Position numbers and translations under genes: made by a program. Positions 6,629-36,630 of a stretch of DNA of 64,000 bases are shown one piece after another. The stretch is taken from the NCBI RefSeq assembly GCF_030656875.1, contig NZ_CP130943.1, positions 558,001 to 622,000 of the forward strand, read 5' to 3'. Source of the stretch: Prescottella sp. R16. Its GTDB lineage: Bacteria; Actinomycetota; Actinomycetes; Mycobacteriales; Mycobacteriaceae. Within the stretch, counting starts at the first letter, position 1. The number at the start of each line of letters is the position of its first letter. The notes beneath the pieces were generated by a model. The model had not been told where the DNA came from. It saw only the letters and a list, made by a program, of their open reading frames with translations, and did not search any database.

Positions 6629-6861
6629 TTCTTCTCGGTCCTTTGTCGACCTTTCTGTCCCGGCCTTCTTTTTCGTGTCTTTCCGTGCAGGTGGCCGAGA
6701 TGTGCTGCCACGACGGTTGTTTCCCGGCCGCCCGCTCGACGGCGACACGGCATTCCGGCACAGTGGTACGGCCGTACCGGAAATTGTCCACAGCCCCCGA
6801 AACCATCCACATTCGCCGAGCAGAGGCCCCGGACGGATGCCTGCCAGGGCAATCTCGGGGC

Positions 6862-9155: not shown

Positions 9156-9973
9156 CGGCAGCACTGATCTGTGTGGCGGCCGCACTGATGACTGCACCGG
9201 CCCATCCCGCCCGCACCCGGTTCCGGGCCGTCACGACGTGGGTCGCGCCCGCACCGATCGGGTGGGCTCGGCAATGGGCGACCCGGCACGGACTCACCCC
9301 GTACGACCTCGGCTTCCCGGTGTGCGCGCTGCTCGCCGTGGCCGGTGCGATCGGACCGGCGACGGCCGCCGCGATCGTCGTCGGCACCCTGCGGCGACGG
9401 CACCGCCGCCGCACGGCCACCGCGGCCCGGGAACGGGCCCGCGACGGTGTGCTCGCCGGACTCGACATCGTGATCGGGGAACTGCGGGTCGGCGCGCACC
9501 CGGCGGTCGCATGCGAGACCGCCGCCGAGGAGTCCGGCATCGGCCCCGACGCCGTCGCCGCCTTCCGCGGTGCCGCGGCCCGAGCCCGGCTCGGTGGTTC
9601 GGCCGCCACGGGTTTCGCGGCCCGCGACAGCGTCGTCGCCGACGACCTGCAGCGGATCGCGGCGGCATGGTCCGTCGCGGAGGCCCGTGGGCTGGCGCTC
9701 GCCGATCTGCTGCAGGCGGCCCGGACCGACCTGCAGGGGCGCAAACGTTTCCGCAACCGTGCGGAGGCCGGACTGTCCGGGGCCCGGGCCACGGCTGCGG
9801 TGCTCGCGGGACTACCGGTGCTCGGCGTCGGCCTCGGACAGATGATGGGTGCCGCTCCGGTCCGGGTCCTGCTCGGCGGCGGCCTCGGCAGTGTGCTGCT
9901 GGTCGTCGGAACGGCGCTGGTGGCTGCCGGGCTGGCATGGACAGACCGCATCGTCGACCGGGCGGTGACCTGA
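9152..9973 (+). CDS. tadB: Tad pilus inner-membrane platform protein TadB-like (Rv3658c homologue)
   Basis: A 273-residue type II secretion F-domain protein. Hydrophobic segments near residues 2-15 and 60-80 and two near the C-terminus (VLLGGGLGSVLLVVGTALVA) flank a cytoplasmic region, the TadB pattern. It would form, with TadC, the platform on which the TadA ATPase acts. ATG 9152 overlaps the tadA stop; the C-terminus overlaps tadC by one base (TGATG). Confidence 0.85.
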   Translation: MTAALICVAAALMTAPAHPARTRFRAVTTWVAPAPIGWARQWATRHGLTPYDLGFPVCALLAVAGAIGPATAAAIVVGTLRRRHRRRTATAARERARDGVLAGLDIVIGELRVGAHPAVACETAAEESGIGPDAVAAFRGAAARARLGGSAATGFAARDSVVADDLQRIAAAWSVAEARGLALADLLQAARTDLQGRKRFRNRAEAGLSGARATAAVLAGLPVLGVGLGQMMGAAPVRVLLGGGLGSVLLVVGTALVAAGLAWTDRIVDRAVT

Positions 9974-10554
9974 TGTGGCTGTCGATCGCCCTGACGGCCG
10001 CTGCCGTGCTGACGGTCCCCGGCGGGACGCGGGTGCGTCACCGGTTACGTGGATCCGCCGTCGTCCCGTCCGACGACCGGGTTGCGGCGCCGACCGCGGA
10101 CGCCGACGACCCACTGGCCGTCGCCGGCACGTTCGACCTGCTCGCGGCATGCCTCGAGGCCGGTCTGCCACCGGCCGCCGCAGCCGCCGCTGTCGCACCG
10201 TCGGCGCCACCGCCGTTGTCGGAGTCGTTGCGCCGCACCGCGGACCTGCTGGCGCTCGGCGCCGATCCCGCCACCGCGTGGGCGGCGTCGGACACGGATC
10301 CGGCGACGGAAGCGCTCGCCCGGATGGCGCGGCGCTCCGCACGATCGGGGGCCGCCCTGTCCGGGGCGATCGCGGAACTGGCGGTGGGACAGCGCACCGA
10401 CGCCGAGGACCGGGCGCTCGCCGCCGCGGAACGCGCCGGTGTGCTCGTCAGCGGCCCGCTGGGCCTGTGCTTCCTGCCCGCGTTCATCTGCCTGGGCATC
10501 GTCCCGGTGGTGATCGGGCTCGCCGGCGGAGTCCTCTCGGGAGGGCTCCTGTGA
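9973..10554 (+). CDS. tadC: Tad pilus platform protein TadC-like (Rv3657c homologue)
   Basis: A 193-residue T2SF-type membrane protein, shorter than proteobacterial TadC but normal for the actinobacterial Rv3657c family. A helical region rich in Ala (LAACLEAGLPPAAAAAAVA) is followed by the T2SF signature region (RMARRSARSGAALSGAIAEL) and a C-terminal membrane segment (FICLGIVPVVIGLAGGVL). It is coupled to tadB by a TGATG junction and lies 60 bp upstream of the pilin gene. Confidence 0.85.
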   Translation: MWLSIALTAAAVLTVPGGTRVRHRLRGSAVVPSDDRVAAPTADADDPLAVAGTFDLLAACLEAGLPPAAAAAAVAPSAPPPLSESLRRTADLLALGADPATAWAASDTDPATEALARMARRSARSGAALSGAIAELAVGQRTDAEDRALAAAERAGVLVSGPLGLCFLPAFICLGIVPVVIGLAGGVLSGGLL

Positions 10555-10614: not shown

Positions 10615-10740
10615 ATGTGGACGAAGAAGTTTCACGAGATCCAGGCACGGATCGTGCTCGCGGCGACCGCCGACGACGGCATGAGCACCGCCGAGTACTC
10701 CAAAACCTCGGTTTACTCCCGTAAGACAAGCGACCCCTAA
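10615..10740 (+). pseudogene. 5' part of Flp-type pilin gene (DUF4244, Rv3656c homologue), interrupted at attL
   Basis: A GGAGG site precedes the ATG. The encoded start is MWTKKFHEIQARIVLAATADDGMSTAEY, a class III/Flp prepilin leader. Processing is expected after the Gly, leaving the mature start MSTAEY with conserved Glu and Tyr. From codon 29 the sequence is foreign (SKTSVYSRKTSDP) and stops at 10738-10740, giving a 41-aa truncated product with no hydrophobic pilin core. The missing core is at 21499-21619, beyond the mobile element. Joining bases 10615-10697 to 21499-21619 gives 204 nt, exactly 68 codons, and an intact 67-aa pilin. Confidence 0.93.
10693..10697 (+). other. attL core (GAGTA)
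   Basis: GAGTA is the only sequence shared at the two junctions, in GCCGAGTACTCC here and GCGGAGTATGCG at 21494-21498. A five-base identity suits a large serine integrase, which exchanges strands at a 2-bp core. GT is the likely dinucleotide, because TA would be palindromic and could not fix orientation. Confidence 0.8.
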
Positions 10741-10763
10741 GGTGCTGGAACACCTACGGGGTC
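10732..10763 (+). other. Stem-loop just inside attL
   Basis: Arms GACCCC/GGGGTC (10732-10737, 10758-10763) and AGGTG/CACCT (10740-10744, 10751-10755) stack into one hairpin. It spans the truncated pilin stop codon and could end tad-operon transcription before it enters the element. In the excised circle it lies upstream of the integrase. Confidence 0.6.
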
Positions 10764-10788
10764 TTGGCCACAACGGAGAGAGCCCGTT

Positions 10789-11034
10789 ATGAACCGTTTC
10801 ACGAGTGTAGCTGCACAAGATCGCTTTGTCGTCGTAGCCAGCATGGCTGGTGGTACGAACCTCGGCACCTTCGATTGCATCACTGAAGCTCACGCCCGGA
10901 TCACTCGGCACATCGAGCACGTCTGCAACTTGTTCCCTGGCGAGGAAGTCCAGATCTGCCAGGAAGGGCCGTCCGTCGTCTGCGACTGGACCAACGGCCA
11001 GCACATCACCTACACGGTGACGGCCTCCCGCTAA
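10789..11034 (+). CDS. Small protein of unknown function at left end of satellite
   Basis: An 81-residue protein beginning MNRFTSVAAQDRFVVVASM, with GGAGAG 7 bases before the ATG. It contains two Cys (HVCNLFPGEEVQIC) plus another in VVCDWTNG. No transmembrane segment is evident and I do not recognise the family. It is the first gene inside attL and the only rightward gene left of the restriction-modification block. Codon use and the clear ribosome site support it as real. Confidence 0.6.
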   Translation: MNRFTSVAAQDRFVVVASMAGGTNLGTFDCITEAHARITRHIEHVCNLFPGEEVQICQEGPSVVCDWTNGQHITYTVTASR

Positions 11035-11050
11035 CGACCCGTTCCGTCTC

Positions 11051-11325
11051 CCAGGGAGCAATCCCTGGGGGCGCGGTGCGGGCCTTTGGCCTGCCGTCGT
11101 TCCAAGTGCCGTCCGACGCAAACCAGCGGCACCCGGTGTTCTTCTTCTTGTGAACCGGCACAGGGCCGACTCCCCAGCGGATCGTGGGGCGCTCTCTTGG
11201 ATGGACCGGCCGGACGCCTTGAGGGTCAGCGACAGCCTGCCCGCTTTCAGCGGGTGGGCTAGCTGCCGTGAACAGCTAGCGGGAATTGGTGCTGGGGACC
11301 AGCTAGAGCGGGGACGACCCGCTAG
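11051..11325. other. Noncoding stretch with a stem-loop cluster (left end of satellite)
   Basis: The gap 11035-11405 has no convincing gene. It holds a perfect 7-bp hairpin at 11051-11068 (CCAGGGA/TCCCTGG), an imperfect one near 11077-11095, one at 11234-11260 (CCCGCT/AGCGGG), an abutting 7-bp stem at 11259-11279 (CTAGCTG/CAGCTAG), and one at 11303-11325 (AGCGGG/CCCGCT with CTAG ends). It may be the structured leader of the methyltransferase operon or a satellite cis-acting site. Confidence 0.6.
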
Positions 11326-11405
11326 GGTCGGGGAAACCTCACTCCGGAAGAGCCCTGCCGCCCGCAGGGCGTCCGTTGGGTCCGGCACAGCCGCCGCAGG
11401 CGTCC

Positions 11406-11528
11406 TTATCTCTCGGACCTCCGGTGCAACGACAGTTCCCAGCGCACGAAGTCGAGTGCAGCGATCACGTCGGGGTCGTCCGGGTCCAGGCCCTCCTCAA
11501 GCAGGGCCTCACGCTCTTCGTCATCCAT
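11406..11528 (-). CDS. Possible 40-aa acidic microprotein
   Basis: Reads MDDEEREALLEEGLDPDDPD and then VIAALDFVRWELSLHRRSER. The composition (acidic N-terminal half, DPDDPD, amphipathic basic C-terminal helix) resembles small conserved actinobacterial and phage proteins rather than a frame shadow. It runs opposite to the methyltransferase, whose real start lies 103 bp further right. Its function is unknown; a regulator of the restriction-modification pair is possible but unsupported. Confidence 0.4.
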   Translation of the reverse strand: MDDEEREALLEEGLDPDDPDVIAALDFVRWELSLHRRSER

Positions 11529-11630
11529 ACGAGCACAGACGCAGCCGAGCGGGCATCGGTTCCACCGAGGTCGTTGAGGCCACCGTGTTGGTCGCATGGG
11601 CGTGACGGTGCGGCCAGATATGATCCGCGC

Positions 11631-12890
11631 ATGAGTAATGCCAGCGCAGGCCCACCGGTCGTTATCGATCTCTTCTCGGGCGCTGGCGGCCTATCCCAAG
11701 GGCTCCACCAGGCCGGCATCCGCACGGCCGTCGGCTCGGACTTCTGGACTCCTGCGGCCGACTCGTACGAGGCTAACCACGTCGATGTCCCGTTCCTTCG
11801 GGTAGACGCGCATGACCTCGACGCAGCGACTCTCATTGCTACCGCTGGACGGATCCCGGATGCGATCGTCGGTGGACCACCCTGCCAGGGTTTCTCCTCG
11901 GCTGGTGCAAAGGACGCAGCAGACCTGCGGAACAGTCTGGTTGGCGTGTTCGCTCGCCTCATAGCTGAGGTTCGTCCCTCGATGTTCCTTTTCGAGAACG
12001 TCGAGGGATTCCTCACATCAGCGGGGGGCGACTACGTCGTCGCTCTACTCGATCCGTTGATCGAGGCTGGCTACAAGATTTCTATCGAGAAGTTGAACGT
12101 CGCAAACTACGGTGTCCCCCAACTTCGGAAGCGAACGATCGCGATTGGTTCCCTGAATACGGCTCCGCAGGTTCCCGAGCCCACGCACCGGGCGTTCGGC
12201 GCTCCCGGTTCGGCCAAGGTTGGACACGGTGCCTTGCCGTTCACCCCTTCCGTGGAGAAGGCCTTGGCGGACCTCCCCCCTGCGGCGTTCTCGGCTGCGG
12301 AGGCGAGCCTTCCTGAGCATTGGGCTAAACCGCCAAGCGAGCTGGCTGCCCGCCGCTACGAGATGCTCGAATGGGGCCAGACGATGCGGGATCTTCCCCC
12401 TGAGTTGCAGCACCCCAGCTTTAGGCGCAGGGCGAACCGTCGTGTCGCAGACGGAACACCGACAGAAAAGCGAGGTGGTGCGCCGGCCGGGCTCCGAAAG
12501 ATGCGCCCGGATGAGCCGTCACGAGCGATCACGAGTGCCGCCTCACGTGAGTTCGTCCATCCGTTTGAAGCTCGCACCCTGACCCTGCGTGAATGTGCGC
12601 GGCTACAGACGTTTCCCGATGCGTACGTGTTCAAGGGCTCGAACCAGCAAAAGGCAACTTTGATCGGAAATGCGATCCCGGTGCGCTTTGCCGAAGCGCT
12701 CGGCGATGCCCTGCTAAAGACGCGTGACGCAGGGGACGATCTCTCGTCCGAGCCTGGCGCGTTGATGCGGTTCGAGGTGACTGTTGGTGATTTGATGAGC
12801 CCAGCACTGCAACGCGTGGCTGAACGGATTGCCAGCCGTTACGGAAAGACCAACATCGACGAGCCGGAGGAACTGACGCTGTGGGCCTAA
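11631..12890 (+). CDS. DNA (cytosine-5) methyltransferase of the type II R-M pair
   Basis: A 419-residue m5C methyltransferase with motifs in order: I (VIDLFSGAGGLSQG), IV with the catalytic Cys (GGPPCQGFSSAG), VI (LFENVEGF), VIII (VPQLRKRTIAIGS), then after the target-recognition region IX (RECARLQTFPD) and X (LIGNAIPVRFAEALG). It methylates host DNA to protect it from the partner nuclease encoded immediately downstream, whose start overlaps its end by 10 bp. ATG 11631 is chosen because the protein then begins just before motif I, as in the family. Base composition is less GC-rich than the flanking tad genes, consistent with import. Confidence 0.95.
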   Translation: MSNASAGPPVVIDLFSGAGGLSQGLHQAGIRTAVGSDFWTPAADSYEANHVDVPFLRVDAHDLDAATLIATAGRIPDAIVGGPPCQGFSSAGAKDAADLRNSLVGVFARLIAEVRPSMFLFENVEGFLTSAGGDYVVALLDPLIEAGYKISIEKLNVANYGVPQLRKRTIAIGSLNTAPQVPEPTHRAFGAPGSAKVGHGALPFTPSVEKALADLPPAAFSAAEASLPEHWAKPPSELAARRYEMLEWGQTMRDLPPELQHPSFRRRANRRVADGTPTEKRGGAPAGLRKMRPDEPSRAITSAASREFVHPFEARTLTLRECARLQTFPDAYVFKGSNQQKATLIGNAIPVRFAEALGDALLKTRDAGDDLSSEPGALMRFEVTVGDLMSPALQRVAERIASRYGKTNIDEPEELTLWA

Positions 12891-13957
12891 CTCAGAGTCA
12901 ACGGTCCACATTCGAGCGCATCTGCAAGATCTCGAGCGGAGACCTCGGTGTAAGCCTGCCCGGTCCAGTGGCGAAGGCGCTCCTTCACCTGAGCGCGCGC
13001 GATTTGAATCTGGCGGGGTTCTCGGCGGGGCGTGCCGACGCCCTTCAAGAACTATTCAACGTCGATCCACCAAGTTCCTTCCAATGGGACGACGACGAGG
13101 ATCCGCTCAAGACGTTCGAGCGGTTTATCGAGGCGACTGCCGGCGATGGCGATACGTACTTTGCTTGCATCGGCATGCTGCATAAGGCTCGCCTGAAGTA
13201 CGAGAAGATCCTTAGCTCTCAGCCGATCCCCACGATGGAGCAGGTTGGTCCGCGAGGTCTGCTCCAGTATGGCGCGATGGACGGCTCAAGCCTCGCTGGC
13301 CTGCTGCTCTGGCGAAAGTGGATGTACGACATTGACAACCGGGCTGCCCAGGAGACCGGCTACTTGTTCGAGCCGATCCTTGCCAGCGCGATCGGAGGTG
13401 CGTCAGCACCTGCATCGAAGAGCCCGGTCCGTCGACGTGCCGATAGCAAGAAGGGGCGGCAGGTCGATGTGGTCAAGGGAGATTTTGCGTATGAGATGAA
13501 GCTGCGTGTGACTATCGCCGCCTCCGGTCAAGGCCGGTGGCGCGAGGAACTCGACTTTCCGCTTGACTGCGTAGAGAGCGGCTACACGCCCGTCCTAACC
13601 GTGTTGGACGGTACCGCCAATCCGAAGCTCTCCGAGTTGGTCGAGGCATTCACAAGCGTCGGCGGTAAAGCGTACGTCGGCGAGGATGCTTGGCGGCATC
13701 TTGAAGACTCGGCTGGCCCTACCATGGCTACGTTCATCGATAAGTACGTGAAAGAGCCATTGCAGGACTTGTTGGCGTCAACTCCCAACGGCTCCAATCT
13801 TCCGAAACTGTCATTGACTCAAACCGCAAGGGGCATACGATTCGACGTTGGTGACGAATCGTGGACGGTGGAGCGCAATCAGATTGATGACAGCCTTTCG
13901 ACCGGAGGCGACGAGCTCCCCGATGACGTGGACGATGGAGTGCTTGGCGGTCTCTGA
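12881..13957 (+). CDS. Type II restriction endonuclease, ApaLI-like
   Basis: A 358-residue protein coupled to the methyltransferase by a 10-bp overlap (GTG start). The segment GRQVDVVKGDFAYEMKLRV fits a PD-(D/E)XK nuclease core (Asp ... Glu-X-Lys). It is followed by TIAASGQGRWREELDFPLDC and ESGYTPVLTVLDGTANPKL, wording I associate with the ApaLI family. ApaLI cuts GTGCAC and pairs with an m5C methyltransferase, as here, but the recognition site cannot be read from sequence. It would cut unmodified incoming DNA, giving the satellite and host protection against other phages. Confidence 0.8.
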   Translation: MGLTQSQRSTFERICKISSGDLGVSLPGPVAKALLHLSARDLNLAGFSAGRADALQELFNVDPPSSFQWDDDEDPLKTFERFIEATAGDGDTYFACIGMLHKARLKYEKILSSQPIPTMEQVGPRGLLQYGAMDGSSLAGLLLWRKWMYDIDNRAAQETGYLFEPILASAIGGASAPASKSPVRRRADSKKGRQVDVVKGDFAYEMKLRVTIAASGQGRWREELDFPLDCVESGYTPVLTVLDGTANPKLSELVEAFTSVGGKAYVGEDAWRHLEDSAGPTMATFIDKYVKEPLQDLLASTPNGSNLPKLSLTQTARGIRFDVGDESWTVERNQIDDSLSTGGDELPDDVDDGVLGGL

Positions 13958-14047
13958 TGGGATGCCTCGGTTAGCGATCTGCGGCACCACTCGCTCGGTC
14001 GTCGAAGCGGTTCCCAGCGCCGCTAGGCGCTCGGATCCGCACGTGAC

Positions 14048-14090
14048 TAGTCGACAAGTCGAGTAGTCGAGTAGTCGAGTAGTCGACTAG
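14048..14090. repeat. Five tandem copies of an 8-bp repeat (TAGTCGAG-type)
   Basis: Units TAGTCGAC, AAGTCGAG, TAGTCGAG, TAGTCGAG, TAGTCGAC, then TAG. The outer units form an inverted repeat (CTAGTCGAC/GTCGACTAG). It sits between the converging nuclease and connector genes, and the connector stop codon (14087-14089) is part of it. It could act as a two-way terminator or a protein-binding array. Confidence 0.85.
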
Positions 14091-14488
14091 CCCCCTGAAT
14101 CGAACGACGAACCCCGAATGGGTGCAACGAGATTGGGGGCGATGGCGAAGGCCTTGCGCGGTCGGATCCCGAGCGTCTGCCATTCCTCGGGGAGGATCTC
14201 GAGCTTGCCCGAGGATGCCTCGCGGTTGAACTGGTACGAGTACCCGCCGTCGGTTTCCGACGCGTATCCGTCGGGGTTGCGGACGACCCGTAGGACGGCC
14301 TCGGCCTCGATGTCGGCCACGTCGGCCTCGTCGATGTGTCCAGCGACGATCCGGTCGGCCAGATCCGGGATACGGCGCAGGATCATGCGTTCTACCTGTT
14401 CGAGCCGGCGCTCGATAAGCGCCATGACCTCTGGCTCAGGTTCCTTGGCCCACAGCGTGGTTACGTCAGCGGCTGCGGCATACGTCAT
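14087..14488 (-). CDS. Phage head-tail connector/adaptor (Gp19/Gp15/Gp42 family)
   Basis: A 133-residue protein opening MTYAAAADVTTLWAKEPEPE with ERMILRRIPDLADRI and the conserved RVVRNPDGYASETDGGYSYQ, the signature of the Gp19/Gp15/Gp42 family found next to capsid genes in actinophages. These proteins dock on the portal side of the head and connect it to the tail. In a satellite without tail genes it would adapt satellite heads to helper tails. The start overlaps the end of the preceding leftward gene by 4 bp. Confidence 0.85.
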   Translation of the reverse strand: MTYAAAADVTTLWAKEPEPEVMALIERRLEQVERMILRRIPDLADRIVAGHIDEADVADIEAEAVLRVVRNPDGYASETDGGYSYQFNREASSGKLEILPEEWQTLGIRPRKAFAIAPNLVAPIRGSSFDSGG

Positions 14489-14754
14489 TGAGTGAGCGCC
14501 TTTCGGTAGAAGTCAGCGGCCGCTAGACCGGCTGCGTCCATCACGGGTGCGGCCAGGTTCTGGCCCTGGTCTGGTACGGCGTGGTTGAGCCAGTCGACGA
14601 CGTGGCCTCTCAGCGCCTGGTAGTCGCCGGGGGTACCTAGACCCTCGAGCGACCGGAGATCGTCCGGCAGGAGGGCAGCCAGGGCCTCGGGGCTCGAGGC
14701 TGTCGGCTTGCGATTGCGTCGCCTGGTCGGCGACATCCCAGTACCTCTGGGCAT
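14485..14754 (-). CDS. Small basic phage protein of unknown function
   Basis: An 89-residue product with a basic N-terminus (SPTRRRNRKPT) and a helical body containing LPDDLRSLEGLGTPGDY. It is translationally coupled to both neighbours: its start overlaps the stop of the small-terminase-like gene and its stop overlaps the connector start. That makes it part of the morphogenesis operon. I do not recognise the family; the ATG at 14754 is favoured over an upstream extension because of the overlap. Confidence 0.7.
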   Translation of the reverse strand: MPRGTGMSPTRRRNRKPTASSPEALAALLPDDLRSLEGLGTPGDYQALRGHVVDWLNHAVPDQGQNLAAPVMDAAGLAAADFYRKALTQ

Positions 14755-15050
14755 CAGTCCTCCTCGGGAGCTGCGAAGTTGAGTCGAGCGAGTAGCTGGG
14801 CGAGTAGCGCCCGCTGGAATCGAACCTCGGAGATCAGCGGATGGATCACCATTTGGCCGGCACTTCCTCGGACAGTGAGCGGCTCGTTGGCAGTCGCACG
14901 GTCCAGCTCCGCGATCGTGTCGGAGACCCGGCACCCGTGAGCGAGGATCTCGAGCTTGGCAGGCTCGTTGTCCAGGTCGTACTCGTCCAGGACGGTTTTC
15001 CAGAGCTTCTGGCCTGCCGAACCGAAGCCCTTCGGCATTCGTGGCCTCAT
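14754..15050 (-). CDS. Small terminase subunit-like protein (P27 type)
   Basis: A 98-residue protein beginning MRPRMPKGFGSAGQKLWKTV, with LDEYDLDNEPAKLEILAHGC and a C-terminal HPLISEVRFQRALLAQLLARL. This layout matches P27-family small terminases, which bind the packaging signal and recruit the large terminase. A TerS without its own TerL is the classical way satellites redirect a helper's packaging motor to their own DNA. Family assignment is by recognition, not alignment. It heads the three-gene coupled operon ending with the connector. Confidence 0.7.
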   Translation of the reverse strand: MRPRMPKGFGSAGQKLWKTVLDEYDLDNEPAKLEILAHGCRVSDTIAELDRATANEPLTVRGSAGQMVIHPLISEVRFQRALLAQLLARLNFAAPEED

Positions 15051-15189
15051 AGGCGTTTCAACCCCTTAATCAAACGTTGGAAATAGGCCCTGATCAGGGC
15101 ATCTAGTGAAAAATCAGGTTCTGAAGACCGCACAAGATGTGGCGACCGCATAACCACCCGGTCTGAGACGGGGGTACGGGGAGTCTCCC

Positions 15190-15543
15190 GTGGGGGTGTC
15201 CCGCCTGATCTGCGACGATGTGCGGGTGATCAACTGGGACGACAAGGTCGCCAGCCAGGCGACGGGCATCGTGGCCATGGACGACTTCAAGGCGCTGCCT
15301 CGGACCGGACCTGGTCGCTGGGCGCAGCCGTACGAGGGCGTCACCCTCTACACCAACGACGACAAGGTCTTGTTCCCGCTGAGCGACGGCACTCCCGCCG
15401 CTGACGGCGCACGTAGCCTGCTGATCCACGCACTCGACAAGGCGTACAAGGCAGGCGAGACCTCCACCCAGGCGTTCGAGCGCCTCTGCAACGGAGCACC
15501 CGTCACTACGGGTGATCTGTCAGAGCTACCGGGTACGTACTGA
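15190..15543 (+). CDS. Hypothetical satellite protein, opposite strand to morphogenesis genes
   Basis: A 117-residue protein containing VINWDDKVASQATGIVAMDD, GRWAQPYEGVTLYTNDDKV and a C-terminal helix (ARSLLIHALDKAYKAGET). GGGGAG lies 7 bases before GTG 15190; GTG 15220 and 15226 are alternatives. It is divergent from the small-terminase-like gene and convergent with the Cys-rich gene. I do not recognise the family. Confidence 0.55.
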   Translation: MGVSRLICDDVRVINWDDKVASQATGIVAMDDFKALPRTGPGRWAQPYEGVTLYTNDDKVLFPLSDGTPAADGARSLLIHALDKAYKAGETSTQAFERLCNGAPVTTGDLSELPGTY

Positions 15544-15550
15544 GCAGCTC

Positions 15551-15853
15551 CTAGCCGGCTCGACCCTTGTGGAACGAGTTCCACTGTCTGTGGGTGATGC
15601 CCGACTCGAGCGCCAGCAAGCGAAGGCGGAAGTTCAGTTCGAGGTACCTGCTGAGTGTGTCGCTGAGTTCGACCACCTCGGTCCACAACTCGGTGGCCAG
15701 CTCCGAGTCACCGATCGCCTTGCAGACCCTCTCGGTGTTCTCCAGTTCCTGCGCGATGACCTTGCAGGAGTAACAGCAGTACGGGTGGTCGCCGAACCTG
15801 AGGCCGGGGCAGCCTTCGCGCTCACACGGCTGGGCGCTGCGGTACTTGGTCAT
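15551..15853 (-). CDS. Cys-rich small phage protein
   Basis: A 100-residue protein. The N-terminus carries a CxxxxC-type cluster (CEREGCPGLRFGDHPYCCYSC) likely to bind zinc, followed by a long helix (AQELENTERVCKAIGDSE) and LSRYLELNFRLRLLALESG. GAGGAGAG precedes the ATG. It sits directly downstream of the capsid gene in the leftward operon. Function not recognised. Confidence 0.65.
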   Translation of the reverse strand: MTKYRSAQPCEREGCPGLRFGDHPYCCYSCKVIAQELENTERVCKAIGDSELATELWTEVVELSDTLSRYLELNFRLRLLALESGITHRQWNSFHKGRAG

Positions 15854-15960
15854 GTGGTTGGTCTCTCCTCGTTCGCGGGTCTTGAACAGCAGAAGGGGCC
15901 GGTGGTGAGACCGGCCCCTTCGCTGGGTGAATCTATTCAGTTATGTTGCAGCTCAATCGA

Positions 15961-16785
15961 TTAGACAGCGTCGTACAGACGCACGATGCCAGCCGGGTTG
16001 GCGTAGCCGAAGGCCACACGCGAGGTGGCGCGAAGCTGAGTCGCATCGGAGTCGAACGACGCGCTGGCGTCCGCGACGATGGTCGTGCCCAGGCGACGGA
16101 CGGTGCGGATCTGGCGCTTGTCCAGGCCCCAGACGTTGCCGGCCGCGACGGCACGCGAGACGTACACCGGGACGCCCGCGAGGCGGACACCGTCGTCCAC
16201 AGTCTCGAGCAGGCCAGCGTTGGAGCCGCTGGTGGTCTTGACCTTGGCCAGAGTGTTGGCGACATCGGGAGCCATGACGAAGTGCGTCAGCTCGGCACCG
16301 TTGTTGAACGCCTGCAACTTCGCGTCGTGGAACGGGTCGAGGTTGGCGAACGCACCAGCGTCGACCACCTGGGCGTCGGTCAGCGAAAGCAGGCCGCTCG
16401 GGCCGTTCGTGACGGTGTCACCGAAGAACGCCGAGTCAATCCGCTTGGCGAGGCTTCGACCGAGACCCTTCGCGGTCTCGTCCAGAACCGCCGGATCGGA
16501 GTCCATGACGGACTCGTTGGAGAGTTCGACTCGGCCGGCGACCTTCTGGGGGGTCACCACCAGCTCGGCGGTCTCGGGATCGGTCAGCGGGATGGTCGCC
16601 TTCTCGGCGACCCAGCCGGTCGCGGCGTCATCGACCAGGATCGGGAACCGGATCGTGTGCTTGTCGGTGTTGGTCACGGTCGCGACCAGGAAAGCGATGG
16701 ACTCGGCGTCGACGACGAGGTCGATTGCCTTGCCGTAGTCCTCGGGGGTCCAGGCGTTGGCGAGGTTGGTGTTCAGAACGGTCAT
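15961..16785 (-). CDS. HK97-fold major capsid protein
   Basis: A 274-residue HK97-type major head protein. Features include the E-loop/N-arm region (TVTNTDKHTIRFPILVDDAA), the P-domain helix (VELSNESVMDSDPAVLDETA), AFFGDTVTNGPSGLLS, and the A-domain ending FGYANPAGIVRLYDAV. Length is near that of small actinophage capsids without a long delta domain, in keeping with a separate scaffold protein upstream (16942-17433). GGAGG precedes the ATG. An own capsid suggests that the satellite builds its own, possibly smaller, heads rather than remodelling helper ones. Confidence 0.9.
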   Translation of the reverse strand: MTVLNTNLANAWTPEDYGKAIDLVVDAESIAFLVATVTNTDKHTIRFPILVDDAATGWVAEKATIPLTDPETAELVVTPQKVAGRVELSNESVMDSDPAVLDETAKGLGRSLAKRIDSAFFGDTVTNGPSGLLSLTDAQVVDAGAFANLDPFHDAKLQAFNNGAELTHFVMAPDVANTLAKVKTTSGSNAGLLETVDDGVRLAGVPVYVSRAVAAGNVWGLDKRQIRTVRRLGTTIVADASASFDSDATQLRATSRVAFGYANPAGIVRLYDAV

Positions 16786-16941
16786 GGTGTCCTCCTACGG
16801 ACATGAGAAAGGCCCCTGGCTCGTTGCCAGAGGCCTGGATTAATGCTGGAAGTCACCGAGCCACGGACTCGGATCCTGTTGCCTCACAGAGGTTTTGTCG
16901 CTCTCTTGCCGTCACGGACGGCGTGCAGAGCAGAAGTTCGG

Positions 16942-17433
16942 TTACCGCTGTGGCGACCAGGGATCGGCCACAGTGCCCTTGATCATCGCGGCGAGCGATG
17001 GCTCTTCGCGCTTGCGTTTCGGAAGGCCTCCGGTGCCCTGGGTGGGATCGAACGCGGGGGCGTTCTTCCGCAGACCGGGGCGCTCCTCGAGGACGGCGGT
17101 GACATCAGCCGCCACGAGGGCAGGGTCGACGTTGCCATCGTCGTCGAGGTAGTCGACGGAGTCGTTCCCGCTCAAGGTGAACACGTCGGATCCGTGAGAC
17201 AGACCGGCCTCGGTGGCCAGTCGTTCGATCTCAGATCGCTGCATCCGGGCGATGCGAGCCTGGGCGGCGGTCAGTTCATCGCGGCTCGCGTCGCGCTCGC
17301 TGCGGTATCGATCGCGTGCCTCCCTGAGGCCCTGGGATACCTCAGGGGTACCCGTGTTGTCAGCTACCGCAGAAGCCTCGTCAGCGTTACCCTCAGGGCC
17401 AGGAATCGACATCGGGTTTTCAGGTGCGCTCAT
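16942..17433 (-). CDS. Phage capsid scaffold protein
   Basis: A 163-residue acidic, helical protein with a coiled-coil middle (GLREARDRYRSERDASRDEL) and a basic C-terminus containing GLPKRKREEPS, the typical architecture and position (directly before the capsid gene) of head scaffolds. It chaperones capsid assembly and leaves the mature head. GGAGG lies 5 bases before the ATG, and the start overlaps the stop of the preceding 51-aa gene. Confidence 0.8.
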   Translation of the reverse strand: MSAPENPMSIPGPEGNADEASAVADNTGTPEVSQGLREARDRYRSERDASRDELTAAQARIARMQRSEIERLATEAGLSHGSDVFTLSGNDSVDYLDDDGNVDPALVAADVTAVLEERPGLRKNAPAFDPTQGTGGLPKRKREEPSLAAMIKGTVADPWSPQR

Positions 17434-17585
17434 CGGTCCTCCGTCCAGTGCGTGATCGTCAGGTCGTCGTACGGGTGACTCCGGCCAGTACCGAAGTCGA
17501 CAACGGCGTCGGGGCCGACGTGGAACGTCCTCGGTGGTGCGCCGTGCTCGGCAGCTCGTACGACCGCCTCGGTCAGTGCGTCCAT
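17430..17585 (-). CDS. Small phage protein (51 aa)
   Basis: Starts MDALTEAVVRAAEHGAPPRT after a good AGAGGAGAG site and ends LTITHWTEDR. It overlaps the scaffold start by 4 bp. Family not recognised; position suggests a minor morphogenesis or regulatory role. Confidence 0.6.
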   Translation of the reverse strand: MDALTEAVVRAAEHGAPPRTFHVGPDAVVDFGTGRSHPYDDLTITHWTEDR

Positions 17586-17733
17586 GCGTTTCTCTCCTCT
17601 GGATATGCGAAAGGCCACGACGTTGGTCGTGGCCCTGGGTATGTCAAGTTGCGATCAGGTCGGGAACCGCTCGCCCTGTAGGCGCTGGTTCCAACAGTTG
17701 TGCGTGGGCTTCCTTCTGGAGGCTGGGAGAACC

Positions 17734-17892
17734 TCAGGCCTCGTCGGCCTGCGCCTTCAGCGTCCGCAGCGCACTACGGCAGCGAGCGCGGTAACGCTGC
17801 TGGGTCTGGCGGCTGCATCTGATGCAGCGGCCGTCGGTGCGGAGGTCCGCTGGGCCGTGGATGTGGTGCTGACCGGATCGACAGGTCCGCAT
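17734..17892 (-). CDS. Small Cys/His-rich phage protein (52 aa)
   Basis: Begins MRTCRSGQHHIHGPADLRTD and continues GRCIRCSRQTQQRYRARCRS. A C-X8-9-H...CxxC pattern suggests a zinc knuckle, as in the HNH-less small phage proteins near terminase and capsid genes. AAAGGAGG precedes the ATG by 7 bases, the strongest ribosome site in the element. Confidence 0.6.
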   Translation of the reverse strand: MRTCRSGQHHIHGPADLRTDGRCIRCSRQTQQRYRARCRSALRTLKAQADEA

Positions 17893-17943
17893 GGCGGGCC
17901 TCCTTTCGGGTGGTAGGGCTATCAGGATTTGGCTGACGAAAAA

Positions 17944-18149
17944 CCCCGGCCTGCCATGACCAGCAGACCGGGGCTCTCGATCAAGTAACTCCCCAACAGG
18001 AGCGGGACGGTAACCAGCCGTCCCTTGTATCCGCTGATGAAGCAGCGGCTTGCCGAGGTCAGACCACCTCGGAAGTTCAGGCGGTCGGCGGAGGAGAGAA
18101 CTACACCGACCGACCGCCGACGAGCTTGGGACTCGCCGGCTGCGGCGAG
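17944..18149. other. Array of six consecutive stem-loops in noncoding DNA
   Basis: No credible gene lies in 17893-18246. Instead there are six hairpins head to tail: 17944-17973 (CCCCGG/CCGGGG), 18004-18024 (GGGACGG/CCGTCCC), 18031-18048 (CCGCTG/CAGCGG), 18053-18072 (CCGAGGT/ACCTCGG), 18081-18117 (GCGGTCGG/CCGACCGC) and 18132-18149 (CTCGCCG/CGGCGAG). Stem sequences differ, so this is not a simple repeat. No T-tracts follow, which argues against ordinary terminators. Confidence 0.85.
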
Positions 18150-18246
18150 CACCGACCAACCATCGGGCTCCAGCTCGCACGTTAATAAGGGATGTCTTTC
18201 CCTGTACAACCATCAGTAGAAATCCGGAACACAGTTTTAGGTTCTC

Positions 18247-18756
18247 CTAAGTGACGTAACTCATACTTGGGACAGTCCTGATCCAGGATCCACGCGACTC
18301 GCTGGCCGAGGTGCTCCACGATCCCTTCGGCCTACCCGGCTGACGAGGCTCCACGGACTGCGCTAGTAGAGCTTCCCTCCGCCGCTTGCGTAGCGCCGCC
18401 ATCCGCTCCTTCGCATCAGCGTTGTGTGCCGCGTGCCGCTTCTCGCTGCACTCGGTGCAGTACTTCGGCCACCGACCGGTGTCGGTGCTTCCGTCCTTCT
18501 TGTCCGCGATGTACCGGCGCGTGTGGACGAGTCCGCTGCAGTCGGCACACGGGCCGTAGTAGACGCGGAATCCCCAGAACTGGACCCAGGCCCCGCCGGT
18601 CGACTCCACTTCCTGCCTGACCACATGGTTCGGGTTCTCGCGTCGCCACTTGTCGACGTGGTTCGGCACCGCCTTGGCGGCTGCGTCGCTCAGCGGGCGG
18701 ACGAACTGGATGCCGGATGCCGAGGTCTCGACCTGGCCGATGGTGTTGGTGTTCAT
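18247..18756 (-). CDS. Phage-type zinc-binding protein, function unknown
   Basis: A 169-residue protein. After MNTNTIGQVETSASGIQFVR comes a region with two CxxC-like pairs (GPCADCSGL and KYCTECSEKRHA), suggesting a zinc ribbon, then a strongly basic helix (KERMAALRKRRREALL) and a low-complexity tail. AGGAGAG precedes the ATG at 18756, which is better than the GTG/ATG at 18768. It is the first leftward gene below the large hairpin array and may be an early regulator. Family not recognised. Confidence 0.6.
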   Translation of the reverse strand: MNTNTIGQVETSASGIQFVRPLSDAAAKAVPNHVDKWRRENPNHVVRQEVESTGGAWVQFWGFRVYYGPCADCSGLVHTRRYIADKKDGSTDTGRWPKYCTECSEKRHAAHNADAKERMAALRKRRREALLAQSVEPRQPGRPKGSWSTSASESRGSWIRTVPSMSYVT

Positions 18757-18982
18757 GTCTCTCCTCATGACGTGTGTTGGAACTCACAGCTAGATGCGGG
18801 CTTCTGCCCCGCGTCCAGTCGCTTGTTACCGGTTCGTAACCTGGGGCTGTGGCTGGCATCTGCCGTATGAGGCTCACGAGCCAGCCCGGCCCCCTCAACC
18901 ACGGCTGGGGGTCTAGGGCTGGTGAGGCCGAGTAGGCAGATGGCAGGCACCGAAGTACGCGCACCGAAGGTGTCGATAGCGC

Positions 18983-19277
18983 CATTCTTGAATGACAGAT
19001 GAGGTGTCCTGAAGCTATTCTTGGCTCCTCTTGGGAGCCATTCCTAACCCTCCAGACGCGCCATTCTTGGCGCTCCAGATGGCACCCCTCAGGTGCCCTC
19101 CGAGACCCCCGCAGGGGGGTATTATCTACCATCAAAGAATAGCTACTGGAGCCCCTTCAGGGGGCTCCTGAGAGATATATTATAATAATATCTAGATAGG
19201 GATTTTCTTTAAGAAAATCCTCTAGTTCGGGAACCCCCTAAAGGGGGTTCCCTCACTCTAACCTCCAGCAACTGGAG
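18983..19277. other. Array of about ten consecutive stem-loops around an AT-rich core
   Basis: Perfect hairpins in order: 18983-18994, 19022-19040 (TGGCTCC/GGAGCCA), 19058-19073 (GCGCCA/TGGCGC), 19081-19097 (GGCACC/GGTGCC), 19105-19120 (ACCCCC/GGGGGT), 19148-19168 (GGAGCCCC/GGGGCTCC), 19174-19192 (GATAT/ATATC), 19200-19220 (9-bp arms starting GGATTTTC), 19229-19252 (GGGAACCCCC/GGGGGTTCCC) and 19263-19277 (CTCCAG/CTGGAG). The stretch 19174-19225 is strikingly AT-rich for this genome. No gene is visible from 18757 to 19778. Candidate roles are replication origin, packaging site or structured leader RNA. Confidence 0.9.
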
Positions 19278-19358
19278 AACTAGATCAAAGATATCCTTGT
19301 TTCGCGCGCCCGCGTAGGGCGGTAAAAACCAGCCCTGACCAGCCCATACGTCGATAGG

Positions 19359-19383
19359 GGCCTCCAGCGTCCGCGCTGAGGCC
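19359..19383. other. Further isolated stem-loops between hairpin array and integrase
   Basis: A 10-bp stem with one bulge at 19359-19383, and a short GTGGC/GCCAC stem at 19438-19455. The remainder up to 19778 is AT-richer noncoding DNA with AATT-containing inverted motifs (near 19633 and 19732). I see no gene there. Confidence 0.5.
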
Positions 19384-19778
19384 TCAAAGGGGCTTAACCA
19401 CCCAACGACTCGAACCACGGTAGGCTAGGCGCTCTCCGTGGCTCCTGGGGGCCACTACGGCGATCCTCAGATCGACGGCACGGCCACATGTCCGCCCGAT
19501 GCGGCGGACTGATTCGAGGGTACCGCCGCCGGGTCGGCGGGGCAAGAGCCGGCCGATCGGGCGGGGCTGATAAACAAGCCGACCAATTCAGGTGCGGCCC
19601 GCGGTGCAATTGCCGGACACGGCAAACACGCGGTCGATAATTCCGAATCATCAAATGGAACCAAAGTCGGGTAAATGGGAATTGCACAGGGGGTCGGGCT
19701 CGGTCCAATTAATCGGTGGCCACAGCAATTATCGAGGCGCTGGGGCCTGCCGTTGATTTTGGCCGGCCCCGGTGCCCG

Positions 19779-21473
19779 TCACTCCTCGGTGGCCTCCAGC
19801 GGGATCTCGACCCGCTCGCCGGACTTCGACACGACCACGGCTGTGTGGTCGTGGATCTCGACGCCAGCGATGCCGTGTTCGGTCATCTTGGCGAACGTCT
19901 CGGTCATCGTCTCGACCGGTCCGACCGTCTGGACTTGAGCGGCCATCTTCTCCAGCTCGGCCATCTCCAGCTGAACCGACAACTCATCGAGCTTGTCGAA
20001 CGTGACCCTGACGCCCATCGTGCGGAGGTAGACGTTCCGCTGGGGGAGGTCCAGCGACTGCCACCAGTCGCGGAACGTCTCGCCGGTCGGCTGCCAGGTC
20101 CAGCCGGCAGGCCTGGTCGTGGCCGCTGCGAGCTCCTCCCGGCGCTTGTCGAGCGCCTCGATGTTCGCATCAAGTGCCGCCCGCTGGGCCGTGCCGGCCC
20201 GAAACGGCCCTCGGCCTAGCTGGCTGGCAAGGTCGGCCAGGGTGTTGTCCAGGTCGACTAGCTCGGCTGCGTTGTCTTCGCCGGCGTCCCAAACCCGTTG
20301 CAGCCGTTCAGAATCCCCCATGAGACCCAGAACCGCGGACTCGACCAGCTCGTCGAGTTCCTCCATGACAACTGAGCCATTGCCGCACGTCGACTTGTAC
20401 TGAGCCGATGAACACCGGTACCGAGGCCGACGGCCCTGACCGCCTTTTAGCTGGTAGCACGGGCGACCGCAGACGCCGCAGTAGATCACCCGGAGCAGCA
20501 AAGCGTTCGACCGCTTGGTCGGCTCCTTGCGGTTCTCGCGGCTGGCCAGCTCCGCGCTGAGCTGGTCGAAAAGATGCTTGGTCAGGATCGGTTCAGCTCG
20601 CTGCACAGGCGAGCCGTCAGGGCCTCGTAGAACGTCCTCGGCCTCGAACATCTTGCGTCCGCGTGCATCCCTCATGACCTCGCCGTTTGCGTCTCGCTTG
20701 GGCTCACGCACGGTTGCGTACCCGAGCATCGTCGGCAGCGTCATCGACCGCTTGAGGCCTCCCGAGGTCCACTCGTACCCCTTCAGCTCACGGCCCAGGT
20801 GAGCGTTCACCCGATCCTTAGCGGTCGGCACCTTGCGTTCGTTCAGGTCGTGGGCGACCGCTCGCAGCGGCTCACCAGCCAATACGCGCTCGGCAACCTC
20901 GTGGATCACTGCCACGGCCTCGGGGTCCGGGGCCAGACGCCAGCCGTCGTCGGTCTGCCGGGGCAGGTACCCCCATGGAATCTGGGCACCACCGGTCCAC
21001 TTCCCGAGCTGGCGGTTGTGGTGGTACGCGGATGCGATCCGGGAACTGATCGCCTCCAGCTCCAGCTCGGCGACCTTGGCCACCAGCAACGCGATGATGT
21101 CGCCGAACGGTGACGTGAGGTCCAGGAACGACTCTGTGGCGCTCACCAGCGACACCGAGTGAGTCTGTCCCCACCGAATCAGGTCGGCCAGATCGAGCAA
21201 CCGCCGAACGATGCGGTCCATCCGGTACACGACGATGACGTCGATCTCTTGAAACCGATTCTCGAGCCAGTCCCCGAGCTGTGGACGCTCGAACGGAGTC
21301 GTGAGACCGGCGGATACGTCCAAGTCTTGGGCGATGCCGGCGACCTCGTATCCGCGCTGTTCACACAGGGTCCGGCATGCCTCGAGCTGGCGCTCGGGTG
21401 AGGTGGTCGCGTCAGTGACACGCGACAGTCTGACGACGATAAGAGCGCGTGTCGGCTTGTGGGGGCTGGCCAT
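19779..21473 (-). CDS. int: Large serine integrase (Bxb1-like)
   Basis: A 564-residue large serine recombinase. The N-terminal resolvase domain starts ALIVVRLSRVTDATTSPERQ (nucleophile Ser17) and continues with DVIVVYRMDRIVRRLLDLAD. Next come a recombinase domain (GGAQIPWGYLP; EWTSGGLKRSMTLPTMLGYA) and a zinc-ribbon domain (IYCGVCGRPCYQLKGG ... YRCSS ... CGNGSV) with a coiled-coil insert. The opening closely matches mycobacteriophage Bxb1 integrase. It integrates and, with a directionality factor not identified here, excises the element. Its ATG lies only about 20 bp from attR, with a likely -10 (TAGATT, 21485-21480) giving a leaderless mRNA. Confidence 0.96.
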   Translation of the reverse strand: MASPHKPTRALIVVRLSRVTDATTSPERQLEACRTLCEQRGYEVAGIAQDLDVSAGLTTPFERPQLGDWLENRFQEIDVIVVYRMDRIVRRLLDLADLIRWGQTHSVSLVSATESFLDLTSPFGDIIALLVAKVAELELEAISSRIASAYHHNRQLGKWTGGAQIPWGYLPRQTDDGWRLAPDPEAVAVIHEVAERVLAGEPLRAVAHDLNERKVPTAKDRVNAHLGRELKGYEWTSGGLKRSMTLPTMLGYATVREPKRDANGEVMRDARGRKMFEAEDVLRGPDGSPVQRAEPILTKHLFDQLSAELASRENRKEPTKRSNALLLRVIYCGVCGRPCYQLKGGQGRRPRYRCSSAQYKSTCGNGSVVMEELDELVESAVLGLMGDSERLQRVWDAGEDNAAELVDLDNTLADLASQLGRGPFRAGTAQRAALDANIEALDKRREELAAATTRPAGWTWQPTGETFRDWWQSLDLPQRNVYLRTMGVRVTFDKLDELSVQLEMAELEKMAAQVQTVGPVETMTETFAKMTEHGIAGVEIHDHTAVVVSKSGERVEIPLEATEE

Positions 21474-21479
21474 GTGTGT

Positions 21480-21485
21480 AATCTA
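21480..21485 (-). promoter_or_regulatory. int: Putative integrase -10 box (TAGATT) next to attR
   Basis: TAGATT on the minus strand ends six bases before the integrase ATG. The -35 region would lie across the attR core, so its sequence differs between the integrated form (host DNA) and the circular form (TTTTGG-like sequence from the left end). Confidence 0.4.
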
Positions 21486-21493
21486 CCAATGCG

Positions 21494-21498
21494 GAGTA
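21494..21498 (+). other. attR core (GAGTA)
   Basis: Second copy of the GAGTA core. The reconstructed attP reads GCGGAGTACTCC, containing the 10-bp palindrome GGAGTACTCC. The reconstructed attB is GCCGAGTATGCG, within the Ala-Glu-Tyr-Ala codons of the pilin. Confidence 0.8.
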
Positions 21499-21619
21499 TG
21501 CGATCGGCACGATCGCCGCCGCGGCCTTCGGGGCGATCCTGTACACGGTCGTCACGGGCGATTCCATCGTCGATGCACTCACCGGGATCATCGACAAAGC
21601 CCTGTCGACGAAGGTGTGA
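21499..21619 (+). pseudogene. 3' part of Flp-type pilin gene, separated at attR
   Basis: Continues the pilin after Glu-Tyr: AIGTIAAAAFGAILYTVVTG followed by DSIVDALTGIIDKALSTKV. This is the hydrophobic N-terminal pilin helix and short tail that the 5' fragment at 10615 lacks. In frame upstream there is a TAA (21479-21481) from the element and no start codon, so it cannot be translated alone. Its TGA overlaps the tadE GTG, so tadE would normally be coupled to pilin translation. Confidence 0.92.
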
Positions 21620-21969
21620 CCCGGCTGCAGACGCTGCGGCGCGACGACGGCGCCGTCACCGTGGAGGCGGCGATCGCGCTCGCGTCGATCGTGACCGTCG
21701 TCGTGCTGTGCGTCGGGGCGATCGTCGCGGCATCCGTGCAGATCCGCTGCATCGACGCCGCCCGGGAGGCAGCCCGTCTCGCGGCCCGCGGTGACGGGAC
21801 GGCTGTCGCGGTCGCCGGCCGGATCGCACCGTCGGATGCCGACGTCGCCGTCCGGGACGACGGTGGGTTCGTCGTCGCGACGGTGCGGGCCCGAGTGCCG
21901 CTGCTGCCGCTGCTCGAACTGTCGGCGGACGCGGTCGCGGCCCGTGAACCGGAGGGCGCCGGCGAATGA
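21616..21969 (+). CDS. tadE: TadE-like pseudopilin (Rv3655c homologue)
   Basis: A 117-residue protein from GTG 21616. The N-terminus VTRLQTLRRDDGAVTVEAAI is followed by a long hydrophobic helix (ALASIVTVVVLCVGAIVAAS), the TadE/TadG-type prepilin pattern with Glu at the +5 position. TadE and TadF/G are minor pilins of Tad pili. Start and stop codons overlap the pilin and the next gene (GTGA, ATGA). In the integrated state it is cut off from the tadABC promoter and needs another promoter. Confidence 0.85.
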   Translation: MTRLQTLRRDDGAVTVEAAIALASIVTVVVLCVGAIVAASVQIRCIDAAREAARLAARGDGTAVAVAGRIAPSDADVAVRDDGGFVVATVRARVPLLPLLELSADAVAAREPEGAGE

Positions 21970-22319
21970 GACGGTTCGTGCGGGACGAGTCCGGTGGGGC
22001 GACGGTGTTCGCGTGCTTCGCACTGGCCGGGCTCGTCGCGGTGACCGCGATCCTGCTGCACCTCGGCGGTGCGGTCGCGGCCCGGCACCGCGCTCAGTCC
22101 GCGGCCGACCTGGGCGCGCTCGCGGCGGCACACGCGCTGGCCGACGGTGCGGAAGCCTGCGTGGCAGCGACCTCGGTGGTGTCCCGGATGCGGGCACAGG
22201 TGAGCGAATGCGTCGTCGAGGGATGGGACGTGCTGGTGACGGCGGAGGCACCGGCCGGGGTTGCCGCGTTCGGCCTCGGTCCGGCGCGGGCGATCGCCCG
22301 CGCCGGACCGGCCGAATGA
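21966..22319 (+). CDS. TadG/Rv3654c-family TadE-like protein
   Basis: A 117-residue protein: MRRFVRDESGGATVFACFAL leads into a hydrophobic helix (AGLVAVTAILLHLGGAVAA) and then RHRAQSAADLGALAAAHALA, the pattern of Rv3654c-family TadG-like pilus proteins. It is exported or anchored in the membrane with the bulk outside. The start overlaps the tadE stop (ATGA). It ends the tad locus, 21 bp before the converging helicase gene. Confidence 0.85.
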   Translation: MRRFVRDESGGATVFACFALAGLVAVTAILLHLGGAVAARHRAQSAADLGALAAAHALADGAEACVAATSVVSRMRAQVSECVVEGWDVLVTAEAPAGVAAFGLGPARAIARAGPAE

Positions 22320-30398: not shown

Positions 30399-30471
30399 GC
30401 TGCCTTAGCTCAGTCGGTAGAGCATTTCACTCGTAATGAAAAGGTCGTCGGTTCGATTCCGACAGGCAGCT
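30399..30471 (+). tRNA. tRNA-Thr (anticodon CGT)
   Basis: The acceptor stem GCTGCCT/AGGCAGC closes the cloverleaf. The D arm is GCTC...GAGC, the anticodon stem TTTCA/TGAAA encloses the loop CTCGTAA, and the T arm is TCGGTTCGATTCCGA. CCA is not encoded. Confidence 0.97.
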
Positions 30472-30478
30472 CGGAGAG

Positions 30479-31395: not shown

Positions 31396-36383
<4,988 letters not shown>

Positions 36384-36504
36384 AAAGAAGCTACGCGTCC
36401 ACTGTGCGGTATCTGAAACAACACACAGATACCCATCCGATCCCCACCACACCCCGAGGGTGTGGTCCGGGCGGGGTCGGAGGGGGTGTGACAGTTTCAT
36501 AGAG

Positions 36505-36621
36505 TTACGGCGGTCATAGCGGAGGGGAAACGCCCGGTCCCATTCCGAACCCGGAAGCTAAGCCCTCCAGCGCCGATGGTACTGCACTCGACAGGGTGTG
36601 GGAGAGTAGGACACCGCCGAA
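36505..36621 (+). rRNA. rrf: 5S ribosomal RNA
   Basis: From TTACGGCGGTCATAGCGG to GACACCGCCGAAC; contains CCCATTCCGAACCCGGAAG. About 117 nt; ends estimated from the pairing of GGCGGT with ACCGCC. Confidence 0.97.
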
Positions 36622-36630
36622 CACCCGTTA

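Follow-up and report, generated by a model that had tools for sequence, protein, structure and literature searches.

Prophages have been found inside the competence pilin gene comYC and other mobile genetic elements (MGEs) inside comM and comFA, and the accessible part of that work argues that such elements gain by preventing their own removal through transformation (Croucher et al. 2016, PMC4774983). A pneumococcal prophage study from 2025 continues this theme in its available text (PMC12637031). Here, we analyze a 64,000-nucleotide stretch of the genome of Prescottella sp. R16 (contig NZ_CP130943.1, positions 558,001 to 622,000; hereafter the window), in which an integrated phage satellite (10698..21493, recognized by flank joining and by Pfam and PHROGs matches) splits a DUF4244/Flp pilin gene of a Tad pilus locus. 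Like the streptococcal comYC prophages and comM elements, the insertions described here lie within the coding sequence of a putative competence pilin or of comM and recur across genera. In contrast to these, they also hit tadA and dprA, the pilin is of the Flp/Tad type, the elements are serine-integrase satellites, the hosts are Mycobacteriales, and the attachment cores at the site used in the window have only TA in common and are occupied in both orientations. We consider it probable that the satellite acts as a transformation block, in an intragenomic conflict of the comYC/comM type that spares it from deletion by imported DNA. What is new is the choice of targets, the group of hosts and the natural competence of Mycobacteriales that the targets imply.

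Other systems share single features with this locus. The candidate phage-inducible chromosomal islands (PICIs) of Mycobacterium and phiRv1 are likewise small elements with an integrase and a major capsid protein (MCP), some of them with serine integrases (Abad et al. 2023, PMC10654092); in the available main text of that paper the word 'pilin' is absent, and of the PICIs with a serine integrase it states no more than that they integrate outside tRNA genes. The Vibrio satellite PLE is, according to the accessible part of its description, a phage-related island that encodes a large serine recombinase and excises (PMC6002521), in a different host and with different genes. Large serine integrases of the Bxb1 type from mycobacteriophages resemble the one in the window, the closest among the best 40 of 945 phage-collection records being 44-47% identical, and two relatives of the window integrase sit at a groEL1-like 3' end; target gene and the TA core set the present case apart. 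The prophages in comK and mlrA resemble it in that the inserted element disrupts a host gene, which a precise excision would make whole again, and regulated excision has been shown for both. We found no report of integration into the DUF4244 pilin in the open-access PubMed Central (PMC) literature, where none of the three papers that mention DUF4244 addressed integration by its title or the start of its abstract.

Results

A phage satellite splits the Flp pilin gene of a Tad locus

The 10.8-kb insert leaves 83 bp of the pilin gene on its left (10615..10697, forward strand; codons 1-27 and part of codon 28) and 121 bp on its right, where the 3' part reaches from the core through the stop codon in the joined frame (21494..21619, forward strand). 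The core GAGTA stands at both ends, as attL (10693..10697, the end of the 5' part) and repeated as attR (21494..21498), such that the insert comprises one copy of the core and about 10,796 further bp. The core covers the Glu-Tyr codons of the Flp motif, written G/XXXXEY in the part of PMC4322843 that is available. Joining 10615-10697 to 21499-21619 yields 204 nt, i.e., 67 codons and a stop with an unbroken frame. A frame-preserving cut at GAGTA, as claimed in an earlier reading of the sequence alone (the sequence-only reading), is thus correct, while the 68 codons given there correspond to 67 residues with the stop counted in.

All 14 genomes of the genus contain a pilin match, with at least 66 residues aligned in ten; the remaining four (G000, G002, G003 and G005) carry an interrupted pilin. 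The closest intact pilin in the genus, from G012, is 97% identical across all 67 residues and matches Pfam DUF4244 (PF14029, E 4e-24), which together with the EY motif identifies the joined product as a DUF4244/Flp pilin. The sequence-only reading had named a mismatch between intact relatives and the joined flanks, or a lack of any trace of excision together with a decayed integrase, as findings that would speak against it; neither refutes it, because the relatives match the flanks and the integrase is intact. A chance repeat was considered as well: the 5-bp core alone is weak, but the intact relatives fix the ends of the insert. Nowhere in the Prescottella genome did we find a second intact pilin copy, the split gene being the only pilin gene found.

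To the left of the element, the forward strand carries a tadZ/CpaE-like open reading frame (ORF; 6643..7980, true start uncertain), whose counterparts tblastn located directly before tadA in tad loci elsewhere, the pilus ATPase gene tadA (7968..9155; PF00437, E 5e-55; TadA family TIGR03819, 520 bits), tadB (9065..9973, T2SSF, true start uncertain; PF00482 with 25.1 bits against a cut-off of 25.2) and tadC (9973..10554), which is kept beside tadB and the pilin in related loci. To the right follow, on the same strand, tadE (21616..21969; PF07811) and a gene for a TadE/G-like minor pilin (21966..22319; PF13400). The gene order of the sequence-only reading was confirmed in this way, by Pfam and NCBIfam matches and, for tadC, by locus conservation. 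The GTG start of tadE overlaps the pilin stop (GTGA), and both genes are probably translationally coupled, so that the insertion probably abolishes this coupling too. Loss of the major pilin and separation of tadE and tadF from the operon, which had been claimed likewise, are borne out, and a lysogen would be expected to lack the pilus.

The pilin is interrupted at three sites across the family

We surveyed 401 genomes of the host family. A pilin match was present in 390, making the DUF4244 Tad locus near-universal, and in at least 24 of these, from nine genera, the gene was interrupted. Three insertion sites lie within its 67 codons: site A at EY, site B1 near VVTG and site B2 near DS. The junction of the window, which the sequence-only reading had suggested looking for in other genomes, corresponds to site A and is occupied in 17 (G000, G002, G005, G099, G103, G119, G124, G179, G197, G230, G242, G250, G272, G275, G339, G355 and G361). 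Both pilin parts were located in 14 of the 17, on separate contigs in G242, G250 and G339; G275, G179 and G124 gave the 3' part only. Of these, G179 and G124 are degenerate loci with no recognizable tadC that were counted as site A from the junction, and tadA of G124 is also interrupted. G250 was assigned to the pilin from contig ends alone.

Site B1 is occupied in six genomes (G002, G055, G064, G107, G134 and G367; in G107 the pilin parts lie on different contigs with no integrase found beside either) and site B2 in G003 and G173. In P. defluvii Ca11 (G002, L005 878-20054), two satellites, representing both integrase families, sit inside one 67-codon pilin gene and leave a 21-residue middle piece between them. 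The IMG/VR contig L191 holds the same two integrases and middle pilin piece. The recurrence in many separate genomes and elements rules out an assembly artefact. G221 was rejected as a split pilin, since its 5' end is decayed and no element is present there. We did not count G137 and G181, where a contig edge falls inside the pilin, or G082 with its decayed tad locus, and left out a second pilin match of G323 on another contig.

Related integrases split dprA, tadA and comM

Relatives of the site-A integrase split dprA in G007 and G229, where both parts were located (residues to 211 and 207-373). The core of these insertions is GAGTAC, again at Glu-Tyr codons. Their satellites encode a small terminase subunit (TerS) 93.9% and 92.9% identical to that of the window and an MCP 62-63% identical, so that a single satellite type has two targets, of which one lies away from the cell surface. 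Site-B relatives interrupt tadA in G169 and G202, in both cases at the Walker A codons, and comM at the same site, at about residue 84, in G022 and G003, with both parts located for each gene. The genome G003 is 79% complete and contains frameshifts, and for L175 the comM row from tblastn overran the true end, the match actually stopping near residue 85. The genome of the window retains comEC, comM and dprA, and Pfam confirmed its own DprA (PF02481) and ComM (PF01078, PF13541).

Coding-sequence insertions thus recur across species in transformation genes, among which dprA and comM count directly, and the pilin and tadA by homology to Micrococcus luteus genes. In M. luteus, the tad genes are needed for transformation, tadB only partly, and pilin complexes or assembly and transformability went together, according to the accessible part of Angelov et al. 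(PMC4322843). The targets also bear on the idea that removing the Tad pilus guards the lysogen against phages for which it is the receptor. Such a role would suit the restriction-modification pair that is also on the element. Tad pili act as phage receptors in other bacteria. However, DprA and ComM are cytoplasmic proteins that cannot be receptors, and a satellite needs its helper phage to infect; we regard this explanation as very improbable.

A census of integrases in the 401 genomes gave 19 matches for family A, two of which (G387 and G179) have no assigned target, and 32 matches in 30 genomes for family B. Twenty integrases sit at the pilin, with G250 placed there by inference, and six of the 31 others lie in tadA, comM or dprA. 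When 10 of 4,500 genes are assumed to be transformation genes, the binomial P is about 8e-11 for the 6 of 31 and about 4e-6 for three transformation-gene sites if the number of distinct sites is assumed to be 14 (range considered 10-25), figures that serve as a guide only, because the gene list was picked after the hits were known and related integrases are not independent.

This dependence and the late choice of genes weigh against a transformation block, as do several further points. For 21 of the 32 family-B matches, the location is elsewhere than the pilin, tadA or comM, or no placement was obtained. Two more distant family-A relatives (G316 and G041) sit at a gene end that we recognized as, and take to be, the groEL1 3' end. 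Other neighbors of the integrases are DUF222, ligase, NlpC/P60, dioxygenase and nuclease genes, some identified by Pfam. The second element in the P. defluvii pilin adds no new block, and the Flp pilus, dprA and comM may serve roles other than transformation. We found no demonstration of natural competence in Mycobacteriales in the open-access PMC literature; to our knowledge, the order is mostly regarded as non-transformable.

That a groEL1-like gene and other unrelated genes adjoin integrase relatives would also be expected if the integrases simply relied for their attB on coding sequence that is conserved yet dispensable, whatever the gene does, and the position of the cores in conserved codons (EY of pilin and DprA, Walker A of TadA) fits this explanation. 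Such a neutral anchor is not expected, though, to produce three sites in one 201-bp gene plus insertions in three further transformation genes, and we consider it unlikely. The transformation block is favored, because the pilin, TadA, ComM and DprA share natural transformation and not adhesion or a surface position.

Family-B-like integrases in L157, L163 and L151 adjoin FtsK/SpoIIIE-like and AAA-lid genes with the look of type VII secretion, the FtsK/SpoIIIE Pfam match being present in L157 only, just below the cut-off, and missing in L163. A connection between ESX systems and conjugal transfer has been described.

Integrases, attachment cores and orientation

By tblastn, the site-A integrases are 42-85% identical to that of the window, the lowest value belonging to G099. 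For the site-B integrases, identity is 23-28% with the window integrase and 43-69% with the P. defluvii one. The site-B elements L091, L092 and L094 hold capsid or scaffold homologues as well. At site A, seven elements (window, L005, L085, L082, L075, L099 and L126) have the integrase next to the 3' part of the pilin, and seven (L072, L079, L081, L121, L124, L127 and L129) have it next to the 5' part, a count that leaves out G124, G179 and G250. The two orientations are interspersed in the tree, where L124 is sister to L075 plus L099 with 100/100 support and L121 has a very long branch. Across the site-A elements, the bases common to attL and attR, with cores read by eye, shrink to TA, fitting a palindromic crossover that would permit both orientations. 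The arms of the window element carry inverted GTAAAC/GTAATC-like motifs 13 bp from the TA. The five integrase-bearing B1 elements share one orientation (5:0, P 0.06), and the two B2 elements differ in orientation. The integrases are unusual in that site-A cores share TA only and elements are found both ways round.

Intact pilin copies beside relics of occupied loci

The sequence-only reading had seen in this locus the arrangement of an active-lysogeny switch. Under active lysogeny, the satellite would excise precisely under some condition, restore the pilin and surface pili, and then re-integrate. The integrase and both att cores are intact, in 15 of 17 site-A 3' parts the frame is open from the core onward, with a stop following after 40-41 codons (the exceptions being L078 and L005, which is cut by the second element), and the two pilin parts of the window together differ from G012 by 15 synonymous and 2 amino-acid codon changes. 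Intact halves are, however, equally explained by recent insertion. No excision factor turned up, no systematic search for one having been made; in Vibrio PLE, such a factor is supplied by the helper. In the G250 assembly, the contigs end on both sides of the insertion at the att core or no more than 2 bp from it, a lead rather than evidence; such breaks have other causes. In this genome (L087, L128 and L183) the satellite forms a 10.9-kb contig of its own, which may mean that excised and integrated states occur together.

In three genomes (G145, G287 and G139; L083, L084 and L095), an intact pilin-tadE-tadF cassette stands beside a relic of the occupied locus, unlike the result of an excision. 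The order is intact cassette, remnants, attR-like junction, partial second pilin and second tadE and/or tadF. The remnants are, in G145, an integrase fragment and transposase-like ORFs, the latter also present in G287 (both named by eye), and, in G139, a tadZ fragment; the two cassette copies of G145 are 85-90% identical in DNA. It looks as if the pilin was regained through imported or duplicated DNA after decay of the element and not through excision, other histories being possible. Insertions in dprA and comM are ill-suited to an adhesion switch, and active lysogeny appears quite unlikely to us. Judged from where the insertions fall, the comparative targets fit a transformation block better than an adhesion switch.

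Gene content and class of the satellite

The large serine integrase (19779..21473, reverse strand; 564 residues) starts only 20 bp from the attR core and contains Resolvase, Recombinase and zinc-ribbon domains (PF00239, PF07508, PF13408; phrog_95, 4e-117). Virion-related genes on the same strand encode a head-tail adaptor Ad1/Gp19 (14087..14488; phrog_137, 3e-39; PF09355), TerS (14754..15050; phrog_1496, 3e-19), an HK97-type MCP (15961..16785; PF05065, 2e-23; phrog_617; TIGR01554) and, as a weak match, a scaffold protein (16942..17433; phrog_4708, E 0.002) kept beside the MCP in relatives. A conserved element protein with CxxC motifs (18247..18768, reverse strand), 49-82% identical in four related elements, is, speculatively, a candidate regulator or excision factor. 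On the forward strand lies a gene for a phrog_4491 protein (15190..15543), a family of unknown function.

The element combines integrase and MCP in a small space and lacks a full virion gene set, as seen from its ORF sizes and a PHROGs scan of ten element ORFs; among these ten no TerL, portal or tail family matched, small tail genes being possible. Its only ORFs of at least 300 residues are those of the methyltransferase, the endonuclease and the integrase and one antisense ORF crossing attL. Integrase, HK97-type capsid, TerS and adaptor, together with the matching intact relatives, bear out the earlier description of a phage satellite inserted exactly in the pilin, and phage satellite of the integrase-plus-capsid kind (candidate PICI) is a fair name for what is presumably a helper-dependent element. 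Capsid-forming PICIs (cf-PICIs) encode their own portal, head protease, both terminase subunits and connectors, according to the available text of PMC10690885; here, only the MCP, the weak scaffold, TerS and one adaptor were found, which falls outside that definition.

The cargo of the satellite (11631-13957) is a restriction-modification pair on the forward strand, consisting of a C5-cytosine DNA methyltransferase (11631..12890; PF00145, TIGR00675) and a restriction endonuclease (12881..13957). The latter was assigned to PF09499, which we take to be the ApaLI type, through precomputed Pfam annotation of listed homologues, whereas its own Pfam and NCBIfam scans and a PDB search gave no match. 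About 10 kb downstream of the element, the window contains a complete 16S-23S-5S rRNA operon (31398-36622), preceded by a tRNA-Thr (30399-30472); the operon accounts for the low-GC, high-skew stretch of the window.

Discussion

We propose the following sequence of events for the transformation block. The integrase would recombine attP with an attB formed by the conserved codons for Glu-Tyr in the Flp/DUF4244 pilin gene. The insertion breaks the major pilin gene and severs tadE and tadF from the operon, which is read directly from the locus. By analogy with M. luteus, where the Flp pilus is required for natural transformation, the pilus would be needed for it here as well. The lysogen should then not transform, and consequently element-free imported DNA could not replace the occupied locus by homologous recombination. 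The satellite would thereby be retained, to its own presumed benefit. Its relatives may gain the same outcome through breaking tadA, comM or dprA. Loss of transformation in the host is, in this scheme, a prediction from gene disruption.

A broader claim, for and against which we see the arguments as evenly balanced, is that a set of serine-integrase satellites specializes in breaking the transformation machinery of Mycobacteriales (Flp pilin, TadA, ComM and DprA) and thereby marks a current or recent competence, mediated by DUF4244 Flp pili, that cures chromosomal elements. The repeated insertions in the genes for the pilin and its ATPase and in two genes of DNA processing suggest that the DUF4244 Tad locus serves transformation, a function that thereby becomes testable by gene removal. 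If true, the targets of the satellites would be an evolutionary readout of present or recent competence in Mycobacteriales.

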